DNA of 64,000 nucleotides from Ramlibacter montanisoli (GTDB taxonomy: Bacteria > Pseudomonadota > Gammaproteobacteria > Burkholderiales > Burkholderiaceae_C): contig NZ_JABFCS010000001.1 in NCBI RefSeq assembly GCF_013087525.1, positions 682,001 to 746,000 on the forward strand, given 5' to 3'. Made by a program: the position numbers and the translations under genes. The notes beneath the pieces are model-generated. The model had not been told where the DNA came from and did no database searches. It was given only the letters and a program-made list of their open reading frames with translations. Shown here one piece after another: positions 2,695 through 18,048 of this stretch. Position 1 is the first letter of the stretch. Every line of letters starts with the position of its first letter.

Positions 2695-4516
2695 CTAGCG
2701 GCCGCGCAGGAACAGGGCGTCGAGCTCGCGCAGGGTGAGCTGGCGCCAGGTCGGCCGGCCGTGGTTGCACTGGTCGGAGCGCTCTGTCTCCTCCATCTGC
2801 CGCAGGAGGGCGTTCATCTCCTCCAGCGTCAGGCGCCGGTTGGCCCGCACGGCGCCGTGGCAGGCCATGGTGGCCAGCAGCTCGTTGCGGGCGCGCTCGA
2901 CCACGCTGCTGGCGTCGTGCTGGGCGAGCTCCGCCAGCACGCTGCGGGCCAGTTCCACCGCATCGCCCTGCGCCAGGGTGGCCGGCACGGCGCGCACTGC
3001 GAGCGTCTTGGGCGTGAAGGGCGTGATCTGCAGGCCCAGGGTCTCCAGGGCGTCCTGGCAGGCTTCGGCGGTCGCGACTTCGGCCGGCGTGGCCGGGAAG
3101 GTGGCGGGGATCAGCAGCGGCTGGCTGCGGATGGCCTGCGCGTCCATCTGGGCCTTCAGGCGCTCATAGACGATGCGCTCGTGGGCGGCGTGCATGTCGA
3201 CCACGATCAGGCCGTGGGCGTTCTCGGCGAGGATGTAGATGCCTTGCAGTTGGGCGATGGCCTTGCCGAGGGGCCAGGCTCCCTCGGGCATGGGAACCGC
3301 GGAACTCGTAGGCTGGTGGTGAGCGGAGCGAACCCCAGCATCCTCCGAGGGCGCGCCGCGCGCATCGCTGGGGTTCCTGTCGTCACCCCAGCCTACGGGT
3401 TTCCATGGCGGGCGGGACTCATGCGCGAACGCGATCCCCGGCTGCCGCCACGCGGGCTCCGCCACCGGCAGCTCCGCCTGCGCCCAGCGGCACCGCCGCC
3501 GCCCGCGGGGCCGACAGCGCCGACTCCACGGCACGGCGCACCGCCTGGTGCACCTCGCGGCTGTCGCGAAAGCGCACCTCGATCTTGGTCGGGTGCACGT
3601 TCACGTCCACCCGCGTGGGGTCGATCTCCAGCTGCAGCGCGTACACCGGCTGGCGCTGGCCGTGCAGCAGGTCCTCGTAGGCGCTGCGGGCCGCGTGCGT
3701 GATCACCTTGTCGCGCACGTAGCGGCCGTTGACGTAGGCGAACTGCCAGTCGGCGCGCGAGCGCGCTGCGTCGGGGATGCCGGCGCGGCCGGTCACGCGC
3801 AGGGGACCGGCCGTGTGGTCGATCACGACGCTGTCGGCGAGGAACTCCTCGCCCAGCACGTCGGCCAGGCGCTGGTCGCGCGAGCCGGGACGCCACTGCT
3901 CGCACAGCTTGCCTTCGTGCCAGACGGTGAAGCCGACGTCGGGCCGCGCCAGCGCATGGCGGCGCACCGCTTCCAGGCAGTGCGCCAGCTCGGTCGCATC
4001 GGTCTTGAGGAACTTGCGGCGCGCCGGCGTGCTGAAGAACAGCTCCTTCACCTCCACCGTGGTGCCGGTGGAGCGCGCGGCGGGCCGCAGTTCGCCGCTG
4101 GTGGCGTCGAGCAGGAAGGCGCTGGCCTGGCCCGCCGTGCGCGACAGCAGGTGCAGCTCGGACACCGAGGCGATGGCTGCCAGCGCCTCGCCGCGAAAGC
4201 CCATGGTGGCCACCGATTCCAGGTCGGCGAGCGAGCCGATCTTGCTGGTCGCGTGGCGCTTCAGGGCCAGCGGCAGCTGCTCGCGATCGATCCCGCCGCC
4301 GTCATCCTCCACCGAGATCAGGCGCACGCCGCCGGCCAGCAGGCGCACCGTGACCTGCGTGGCGCCGGCGTCCAGAGCGTTGTCGACCAGCTCGCGCACG
4401 ACCGACGCGGGCCGCTCCACCACCTCGCCGGCCGCGATCTGGCTGACCAGCTCGTCGGGCAGTTCCCGGATCGGTCGGCGCGGGGCGGGGGAGAGCACGG
4501 CACTCATCTGTTCCAT
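2695..4516 (-). CDS. mutL: DNA mismatch repair protein MutL (frame broken near 3483)
   Basis: MutL couples MutS mismatch recognition to strand incision. The N-terminal GHKL ATPase (NALDAG, DDGGGI and GFRGEALA motifs) ends in one frame; the C-terminal part reads in another. The join is within a GGGC run near 3483 in the poorly conserved linker, where dropping one G restores [15 protein letters not shown]. The C-terminal domain carries [12 protein letters not shown], the ACHGAVRA block and CNHGRPTW, the metal-binding motifs of endonuclease-proficient MutL, as expected in an organism without MutH. The linker also contains a translated palindromic repeat (3308-3396). ATG 4507 lies 7 nt after TACAAT and is the likelier start than ATG 4516. 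Confidence 0.92.
3308..3396. repeat. Dispersed palindromic (REP-like) repeat, copy A, inside mutL
   Basis: An 89-bp imperfect palindrome. It starts GTAGGCTGG and ends CCAGCCTAC; each half has the form GTAGGCTGG..GTGA...AACCCCAGC, so it could fold into a long hairpin. Copy B at 17050-17128 matches it in reverse orientation. This copy is translated in the MutL linker as about 30 residues without a stop. Its form resembles REP/RAYT-type bacterial palindromes; no RAYT transposase is in the window. Confidence 0.85.
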
Positions 4517-15507: not shown

Positions 15508-15941
15508 GACAGCAGCTCCGACCCGCGCGCCGTGTTGGCCTGCAGCCGGACGTGTCGGCGCCCATCGTCGGCCAGGGTGAGGTGGATGTCGAGGTCGGCC
15601 ACCGGCAGCATGGCCGCGGCCTTCTCGGGCCATTCGGCGACCTTCAGGCCGGCGCCGGCGAACACGTCGCGAAAGCCCGCGTCCTCCCATTCGCGCGGGT
15701 CGTCGAAGCGGTAGAAGTCGAAGTGCCAGGCGGCCAGGCCCGGGAGTTCGTAGGGTTCCACCACCGCATAGGTGGGCGACTTGATGCGGCCCTGCGCGCC
15801 CAGCGCGCGCAGCAGGTGACGCACCAGCGTGGTCTTGCCGGCACCCAGTTCGCCGTGCAGCGCGATGAAGGCGTCGGCGATCGCCGGGTGGCGCGCGAGC
15901 CGCTCGGCGAACACGCGCGTGTCCTCCTCACCCTCCCACAC
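15504..15941 (-). CDS. tsaE: tRNA threonylcarbamoyladenosine biosynthesis ATPase TsaE
   Basis: A P-loop ATPase of the TsaBDE complex that makes t6A37 in tRNA. Visible motifs are GELGAGKTTLVRHLL (Walker A), SPTYAVVEPYE, HFDFYRFDDPREWEDAGFRD and EWPEKA. The start is uncertain: no ATG is available near the 5' end. GTG 15941 begins VWEGEEDTRVF; non-ATG codons further upstream, such as ATT in front of GTAGGAAGC, are alternatives. It overlaps amiC by ATGA and is divergent from queG. Confidence 0.88.
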   Translation of the reverse strand: MWEGEEDTRVFAERLARHPAIADAFIALHGELGAGKTTLVRHLLRALGAQGRIKSPTYAVVEPYELPGLAAWHFDFYRFDDPREWEDAGFRDVFAGAGLKVAEWPEKAAAMLPVADLDIHLTLADDGRRHVRLQANTARGSELLS

Positions 15942-15977
15942 GAGGGGTCGGGAGGCGCTTCCTACAATCGGCGCGTG

Positions 15978-17012
15978 ATGAACGACGGCAGTCAGGGCGA
16001 TGGTCCTTTGCGGGTGCACGATATCCGGGACTGGGCCCGCGCGCTCGGATTTTCCCAAATTGGCGTGACCGGCGTGGACCTTTCTGCGGCCGAACCCGGT
16101 CTGCTCGCCTGGCTTGCCAACGGTTTTCACGGCGAGATGGCCTACATGGAAGCCCACGGTGTGCGCCGCGCGCGCCCCGCGGAACTGGTGCCGGGCACCA
16201 CCTCCGTGATTACCGCACGCATGGATTACCTCCCCGCCACACCCGAGGGCTGGCAGGAGGTGGAGTTCGCGCGTCTGGAGCGGCCCGCCGAGGGCGTGGT
16301 CTCGCTTTACGCACGGGGACGCGACTATCACAAGGTGTTGCGTTCGCGCCTGCAGAAACTGGCCGAGCGCATCGCGGCGGCGGTCGGGCCCTTCGGCCAT
16401 CGCGTCTTTACAGACTCGGCGCCGGTGCTGGAGGTGGAACTCGCCGCGCGCAGCGGCCAGGGGTGGCGGGGGCGCCACACGCTGGTGCTGAACCGCGAGG
16501 GCGGCTCCATGTTCTTCCTGGGCGAGATCTACGTGGACCTGGCGCTGCCCGCCACCGAGCCGACCGGCGACCACTGCGGGACCTGCCGCGCCTGCCTGGA
16601 CATCTGCCCGACCGGCGCCATCGTCGCCCCCTACCGGCTCGACGCCCGCCGCTGCATCTCCTACCTGACCATCGAGCACGCCGGGCCCATCCCGGTGGAA
16701 CTGCGGCCCCTCATGGGCAACCGCATCTACGGCTGCGACGACTGCCAGCTGGTGTGCCCCTGGAACAAGTTCGCGCAGGCGGCGACGCTACCGGACTTCG
16801 CGCCGCGCGAAGGGCTGGTCGGCCAGCCGCTGGTGGCCCTGTTCGCGTGGAGCGAGGAGGAGTTCCTGCGCTTCACCGAGGGCAGCCCGATCCGGCGCAT
16901 CGGCCATGAGAGGTGGCTGCGCAACATCGCGGTGGCGATGGGGAATGCGCTGCGGCGGGGGAGGACGGGGGATCCGGGAAGCCTTGCAGTCACGGGCGGA
17001 CCATCCGAGTGA
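15978..17012 (+). CDS. queG: Epoxyqueuosine reductase QueG
   Basis: Cobalamin- and iron-sulfur-dependent last step of queuosine synthesis in tRNA. 344 residues. The C-terminal ferredoxin-like part holds two [4Fe-4S] motifs: CGTCRACLDICPTGAI and CDDCQLVCPWN. The N-terminal cobalamin-binding region includes YARGRDYHKVLRSRL and RVFTDSAPVLEVELA. ATG 15978 follows TACAAT (15962-15967 area) by about 9 nt without a Shine-Dalgarno. It is divergent from tsaE, an arrangement common in betaproteobacteria. Its message runs into repeat copy B. Confidence 0.95.
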   Translation: MNDGSQGDGPLRVHDIRDWARALGFSQIGVTGVDLSAAEPGLLAWLANGFHGEMAYMEAHGVRRARPAELVPGTTSVITARMDYLPATPEGWQEVEFARLERPAEGVVSLYARGRDYHKVLRSRLQKLAERIAAAVGPFGHRVFTDSAPVLEVELAARSGQGWRGRHTLVLNREGGSMFFLGEIYVDLALPATEPTGDHCGTCRACLDICPTGAIVAPYRLDARRCISYLTIEHAGPIPVELRPLMGNRIYGCDDCQLVCPWNKFAQAATLPDFAPREGLVGQPLVALFAWSEEEFLRFTEGSPIRRIGHERWLRNIAVAMGNALRRGRTGDPGSLAVTGGPSE

Positions 17013-17049
17013 TTTGGTGCGCGAACACGTGGCCTGGGCACTCTCCTCA

Positions 17050-17128
17050 TAGGCTGGGGTGACGCAGGAACCCCAGCTTGCTGGCGGCGCCCGATCGCTG
17101 GGGTTCGCTACGCTCACCACCAGCCTAC
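17050..17128. repeat. Dispersed palindromic (REP-like) repeat, copy B
   Basis: A 79-bp imperfect palindrome that begins TAGGCTGGGGTGACG and ends CACCAGCCTAC. In reverse orientation it aligns with copy A at 3308-3396; the central loop differs in length and sequence. The terminal CCTAC provides the TAG stop codon of the minus-strand permease (17127-17125). It lies between convergent genes and may act as a transcriptional or mRNA-stability element. Confidence 0.85.
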
Positions 17129-18048
17129 GCGGAGACCACGAGCCCCCGCAAGAACCCCAACGCGAACGGCAAGCTCGCCAAGCCCAGCAGCGTCGACAAG
17201 GTCACCAGCCCCGCCACGTAGGCCCCGTTGTAGCCCATCCGCGAGGCCAGCACATAGCAGCTGGACGCCGTCGGCAGCGCCGAGAACGCCAGCAGCACCG
17301 TGGCCTGCGCCGCATCCAGACTGAAGGCCCAGGCCAGGCCGGCGGCCACCAGCGGCAGCAGCAGGTGCCGGATCGCCAGCACCCCCGTGGTCAGCGCCTT
17401 CTGCTGCGCCAGGTGCGCCAGCCGCATGCCGGCGCCGGCCGCCATCAGTCCCAGCGGGATCGAGGCGCCGCCGACCCGGGAGACCGTGGGCTCCAGCCAC
17501 ACCGGCACGCGGAAGCCGGCGAAGTTGGCGGCCAGGCCCAGCGCCGTGGCGATGATCAGAGGATTGCGCACCAGCGCGCGCAGGAAGCCGGTGTCGGAAT
17601 GGCGGGCCATCGGCCACACCGCGCCCACGTTGAACAGCGGCACGCACACCCCGATCAGCACCGCGATCAGCAGCAGGCCCTGCGTGCCCGCCACCCGCTC
17701 CGACAGGGCCAGGGCGATGTAGGAGTTGAAGCGGAAGGCGACCTGCGCGGCGCCGGCGTGCTCGCGCCGGTCGATGTGGCGGCCCAGGCCCGGGAGGTGC
17801 GGCAGCAGGTAGGACAGGCCGATGCCGCTGAGCCCCAGCAGCAGGCCGGCGCCGATCAGGCTGGACGTGGCCCCCAGGTCCAGCGGGCTGCGCACGATGG
17901 ACTGGAACAGCAGGACCGGGAACAGGAAGAAATAGACCAGGCTTTCCACCTGCTCCCAGACCGTGCGGTTCAAGGCGGTGTAGCGGCAGACCAGGTAGCC
18001 AAGCAGGATGAGCGCGAAGTCGGGCAGGAGCAGCTGGAGAAAATTCAC
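17125..18048 (-). CDS. AEC family transporter (auxin efflux carrier-type permease)
   Basis: A 307-residue inner-membrane protein with about ten hydrophobic helices and the family's repeated N/P-rich segments ([33 protein letters not shown]). Members move organic anions such as malonate or malate; the substrate here is unknown. The start is GTG 18048. The stop codon lies inside the end of repeat copy B, so the last codons may have been reshaped by repeat insertion. It is divergent from a tricarboxylate-type binding protein gene. Confidence 0.88.

Follow-up and report, generated by a model that had tools for sequence, protein, structure and literature searches.

The 89-nt palindrome that lies within mutL in the window (the whole stretch of Ramlibacter montanisoli DNA that was analysed, 64,000 nucleotides long) is very probably a miniature mobile element, a GTAG REP dimer, which sits in frame in a tolerant linker of MutL and has been kept there by that tolerance. 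The preliminary description of this DNA had pointed to an 89-bp palindrome in the frame of the C-terminal half of MutL, reading through as about 30 residues with no stop, and the minus-strand ORF at 2695-3534 bears this out, as it passes through the element without a stop and would on translation place about 30 residues in the MutL linker. A frameshift divides mutL into two ORFs in this assembly; the N-terminal one ends ahead of the element and the insert is confined to the second. The locus comprises the following features:

2695..3534, minus strand: C-terminal ORF of mutL (MutL_C; Pfam PF08676, E 1.7e-49), with the element in frame
3419..4516, minus strand: N-terminal ORF of mutL (ATPase and transducer domains; Pfam PF01119, PF13589), in another frame
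3308..3396, no strand assigned: GTAG REP head-to-head dimer of 89 nt, REPIN-like, with GTAG outermost at both ends
3308..3339, plus strand: REP arm 1, GTAG and a stem, GCTGGTGG...CCCCAGC, in which one base is bulged (profile match, E 1.2e-7)
3340..3366, no strand assigned: spacer of 27 nt separating the two REPs (from the sequence)
3367..3396, minus strand: REP arm 2, GTAG and GCTGGGG...CCCCAGC, a 7-bp stem with a 12-nt loop (profile match, E 7.8e-8)

The element starts with GTAGGCTGG and finishes with CCAGCCTAC, which makes it a near-palindrome. Judged by eye, GTAG lies outside the stem-loop in both arms, in agreement with the definition of GTAG REPs as GTAG beside a stem of 5-13 bp with a loop of 2-20 nt (PMC3733652, Table 1), and the REP-like character assigned to it in the preliminary description can accordingly be narrowed to this class. 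The two inverted REPs and their spacer form one hairpin, as in a REPIN; folded as a single hairpin, the RNA is predicted to reach -55 kcal/mol with a z of -5.0 (91 nt folded), and the DNA fold a z of -6.0. An Rfam scan at a permissive threshold returned one weak, irrelevant match only. The segment 3308-3396 is a GTAG REP dimer and REPIN-like, not a proven REPIN, and we file it as a dimer working like a REPIN because no RAYT flanked by these REPs was found. In the genome of the window (G000; 4.75 Mb, 2 contigs, 90% complete) we found no gene for a transposase with these REPs at its flanks, in an assembly from which a broken gene could escape. Its only Y1_Tnp match (L254 2123-2947, IS200-like) is flanked by AATTGGGGTCAGATTC inverted repeats and not by GTAG REPs, there are no GTAG REP ends in the 5.5-kb segment that holds it, and at 74.8 bits the transposase falls short of the 80-bit cut-off of NF047646 (REP-associated transposases). 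A Y1_Tnp gene is present in 20 of the 21 genomes searched.

A second dimer lies between genes, as had been claimed, with an extent of 17049-17128 rather than a start at 17050; the two copies differ at their first base, which is G in mutL and A here.

15552..17012, plus strand: QueG-like gene flanking the second dimer on one side
17049..17128, no strand assigned: second REP dimer, intergenic (from the sequence and a profile match)
17125..18048, minus strand: gene of a membrane transport protein (PF03547), ending inside the second dimer

It is the GTAG end of the dimer (17125-17128) that provides the transport gene with its TAG stop (17125-17127), a contribution of GTAG REPs to neighbouring genes that has been described before (PMC3733652).

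That the sequence is dispersed and not specific to mutL, as also suspected from the window, is confirmed by the genome, which holds 154 exact 9-mer REP ends as compared with 21 for the reversed pattern, 23 exact full dimers as compared with none, and 66 BLAST matches to the element, a figure in which the strands of a palindrome are sometimes counted twice. A chance palindrome could be imagined in linker DNA of this kind, which is GC-rich, of low complexity and rich in Pro/Ala codons, and within the 64-kb window the 9-mer is indeed not enriched (7 matches with at most one mismatch, 14 expected), so that the case rests on the whole genome. The genome-wide dimer counts, together with the reversed mutL and dnaX sequences (51 and 28 genes), which give no profile match at all, rule such an origin out, and we accord it virtually no probability. 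Of 75 sampled clusters, drawn from the first 100 of the 154 9-mer places, 66 have no coding-like ORF across them in a test that misses gene-breaking copies, and dnaX is counted among these 66 owing to its frameshifts. The other nine comprise two clear in-frame cases, one that is ambiguous (L238) and six dismissed on codon-position GC. A long frame with a REP in G069 (L257) was also dropped, as there is no coding-like frame there.

The split reading frame raises the question of whether mutL is truly broken in the strain, which would make it a mutator and place the element in a pseudogene. The N-terminal and C-terminal parts do not share a frame here, unlike in the other 29 mutL loci fetched, where one ORF covers both, and the break itself is not tied to any long run of one base. 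Against this, the same assembly contains two frame changes in dnaX, close to a 7-A run and a 7-C run, gltB appears to be broken too, and a second assembly (G073; 1 contig, 63% complete) likewise has a fragmented mutL. For an assembly that is 90% complete in 2 contigs, indel errors are the simpler reading, and since dnaX also breaks near 7-base runs, the mutL frameshift is probably an assembly error; a genuine mutator we regard as unlikely. The frameshift had not been foreseen in the preliminary description.

The site of the insert is a linker. In an AlphaFold2 model of MutL from locus L063 (603 residues), positions 339-407, which lie between confident domains, have a pLDDT below 50, and the REP-coded residues 380-403 fall inside that stretch, in keeping with the earlier suggestion of a disordered linker. 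REP-like peptides occur in the linkers of many relatives, ahead of the WPLG motif of the MutL C-terminal domain, and they belong to more than one family, a feature that inspection of the window had not anticipated. The named records that best match MutL come for the most part from Ramlibacter, and some members of the genus have MutL linkers identical to those of named Ramlibacter records, which places the set in this genus. We searched 51 mutL and 28 dnaX genes with REP profiles (E<0.01, reversed sequences as the control), a set without L192, loci lacking anchors and two of the 30 dnaX loci whose frames were shorter than 500 residues. The 24 matches obtained (17 GTAG, 2 CGTC and 5 of the GTTCG type) fall in 15 genes, namely ten mutL (G000, G025, G079, G001, G036, G015, G032, G014, G003 and G074) and five dnaX (G011, G020, G025, G070 and G001). 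All 24 lie between the two domains, in linkers that make up about 16% of the bases, a share that excludes two dnaX linkers without a C-terminal anchor; seven of the dnaX matches lacked that anchor at first and were placed separately. The genomes are related and the matches are therefore not independent events. With this qualification, the pattern is that MutL and DnaX linkers repeatedly take up REPs in frame.

A scan for hairpins in the 135 nt before the anchor points in the same direction for MutL. Strong hairpins (z<-4) were predicted in 11 of 121 MutL linkers and in one of 446 windows taken from other parts of those genes (Fisher p ~3e-7), and at z<-3 the figures were 16 of 121 and 6 of 446 (Fisher p ~2e-7), p values that ignore kinship. 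The 121 linkers, 48 of them from genus loci, are those kept after seven duplicates and all loci without an anchor, or with less than 135 nt before it, were dropped. By profile or by eye, seven of the 11 strong hairpins are REPs (L063, L034, L174, L050, L032, L031 and L037), while the remaining four (L139, L136, L111 and L131) were not identified as such. DnaX was first chosen as a control linker, and by hairpin strength it yields a single window of 169 at z<-4, which is not a GTAG REP. The DnaX linkers of several Ramlibacter genomes nevertheless hold REP-derived peptides (L227; loci among L362-L383) and carry GTAG REPs, and MutL is therefore not unique.

Among the mutL inserts, profile support for the GTAG family extends to G025, G001 and G079, with a decayed form in G036, and the elements of G000, G025, G001 and G079 share the same frame (VGW...QPT) and similar junctions. 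The linker of G015 carries an element of the CGTC type, and those of G032, G014, G003 and G074 carry one of the GTTCG...CGAAC type, all by profile scan. In G010, a genome that like G018 was not among the 51 mutL genes of that scan, mutL (C105:1-423) overlaps a match of the GTTCG type (C105:374-434). On visual inspection, L138, a record from Nitrosomonadales that was not part of the tree, has a GTAG-like peptide in its MutL linker as well. The alignment of relatives proposed in the preliminary description did reveal absences, as no REP profile match was found in mutL of G020, G021 and G027, and the combination that it had named as contradicting a mobile element, the same peptide in all relatives and no further copies in the genome, is thus contradicted in both its parts. 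A clean empty site with matching flanks was not found among the relatives.

The mutL inserts of relatives are, judged by sequence identity, repeats belonging to their own genomes. The G079 element is 92% identical to the best full-length copies of its own genome, as compared with 85% for the closest such copy among 16 other genomes, and single arms reach 97%; the G015 element is 90% identical to own-genome copies and 88% to the best elsewhere, and has matches in 33 of 59 genus genomes. For the G032 element, matched in 25 of the 59, identity to own-genome copies is 86-95%, and its best copies, in G062 and G004, reach 98% over 51-55 of 69 nt. The mutL copy of the window has its closest dispersed match in G020 (85-88%), above the best of its own genome (82-83%).

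How often the linker was entered is less readily read from a tree. Our MutL tree of 65 rows was built by a quick method with the linker left out and midpoint rooting only; L178 (partial) and L192 (fragmented) were dropped and 13 named loci were added as outside rows. A single 16-row set (SH-aLRT 98) contains the five profile-confirmed GTAG rows and the seven read by eye, together with the match-free G020, G021 and G027, and G000 falls in a four-row set (SH-aLRT 96) with G036 (decayed), G011 (decayed by eye) and G020. The minimum number of changes is nine overall with strict labels (four GTAG, four of the GTTCG type) and 13 with loose labels, which beyond the strict profile matches are readings of peptides by eye, and neither count can separate gain from loss. 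Since three REP families occupy the MutL linker, there must have been at least three acquisitions. For the GTAG family we consider the chances evenly balanced that its mutL inserts descend from a single old insertion, made in an ancestor shared by the 16 Ramlibacter rows and subsequently decayed or exchanged with dispersed copies, as opposed to several independent ones. The gathering of all 12 GTAG rows on one side of the tree and the common frame and junctions of four of them favour such a history, whereas the G079 copy is of the sub-type found in its own genome, and a single insertion leaves the inserts of the CGTC and GTTCG types elsewhere unexplained. Furthermore, for each of the five GTAG mutL copies compared the nearest counterpart is a dispersed copy and not another mutL insert, in a pool of dispersed copies that was chosen by likeness to the element of the window, and is biased towards it, and that includes just one own-genome dimer each for G001 and G016; judged from such likeness, this nearness fits re-insertion or exchange, and also divergence from one consensus. 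A single old insertion concerns the history of the element and is compatible with its persistence in a tolerant linker. More speculatively, the MutL and DnaX linkers might be landing pads that are repeatedly rebuilt from the active REP family, with translated copies exchanging with dispersed ones, a scenario that we find rather doubtful; if it were true, a stretch of a core repair protein would follow the REP dialect of its genome.

The explanation that we favour, a mobile dimer held in a tolerant linker, would run as follows. A family of GTAG REP dimers would have spread, presumably by transposition, through the genome of the window and some relatives, and one copy would have landed in mutL, in the segment that encodes the disordered stretch joining the ATPase domain to the dimerisation domain. 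The length and sequence of the dimer keep the frame open, which would allow some 30 residues to be translated, and as the linker tolerates changes of sequence and length, inserts there would escape removal by selection, while those in folded domains or out of frame would mostly be lost. The same filter may account for the presence of different REP families at this position of MutL in other species, and of GTAG REPs in the DnaX linker. With regard to length, the seven in-frame dimers considered (mutL of G000, G025, G079, G001 and G016, and a flavoprotein gene of G000 and G025, in which lengths were counted by hand) all measure 2 mod 3, as do 12 of the 23 dimers of the genome, two of which also belong to the seven; as these dimers are not independent, we draw no conclusion from the agreement.

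The insert is most likely a tolerated, neutral insertion of peptide. It might instead be kept for a function, either as an mRNA hairpin tuning mutL expression or as a linker whose altered length or motif affects mismatch repair. The predicted hairpin is strong and the palindromes are intact in several species; in E. coli, shortening of the MutL linker abolishes roadblock bypass (PMC6902014), which makes an effect of length conceivable, and PMC3733652 raises the speculation that mutators might be favoured by REPs lying in repair genes. Close relatives, however, have no element, or decayed or other inserts, which argues against a sequence-specific function, and overall we judge retention for function improbable.

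That REPs can lie within genes, DNA-repair genes in many cases, has already been reported, and in two Xanthomonas species recB carries different REPs at roughly one and the same position (PMC3733652). The families of that study resemble the present one in their unpaired GTAG end, short GC-rich stem, inverted pairs and many dispersed copies, in the use of GTAG as the TAG stop of a neighbour and in the location of some copies within genes, including DNA-repair genes. Whereas the Xanthomonas recB site is the one shared-site case there, three families meet here in one MutL linker, and neither Ramlibacter nor MutL appears in the main text of that paper. REPINs (PMC3116915 and PMC8049555) are similarly composed of two inverted REPs with a variable spacer in one hairpin, with neighbour distances peaking at 71 and 110 bp; in contrast to the present element, they are described as extragenic and as having cognate RAYT transposases, no REP-flanked RAYT having been found here. 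At the level of titles and listings, we found no report in the open-licence PMC literature that connects MutL with a REP or palindromic element. Ogata et al., as cited in PMC3733652, are reported to have described Rickettsia palindromic elements inserted in frame within ORFs, which would be a similar placement in another host. What the present analysis adds is that three families recur in one and the same linker of MutL, with a parallel in DnaX. It offers a concrete and repeated case in which selfish DNA would supply protein sequence to a core repair protein, a natural experiment on linker evolution, because the MutL linker takes different REP families repeatedly, and a direct route to testing whether mutation rates change when REPs enter repair genes, as speculated in 2013.

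Linkers are not the sole places permitted to these elements, because two further inserts in the genome of the window lie in folded proteins. In MnmE (L014 355-1851) a pair of REPs lies between the GTPase motifs NKAD (G4) and SAK (G5), in an intact frame of 499 residues, and in a TIGR03862 flavoprotein an in-frame REP dimer, predicted to be translated, occupies the same position in both G000 and G025 (L258 2876-4264 and L256 1060-2523). Repeat-like peptides of other types are also seen in the MutL linkers of L191 and L136 (GEGWGGG and PLTRGDRGG type, respectively), and these may derive from other repeat families.
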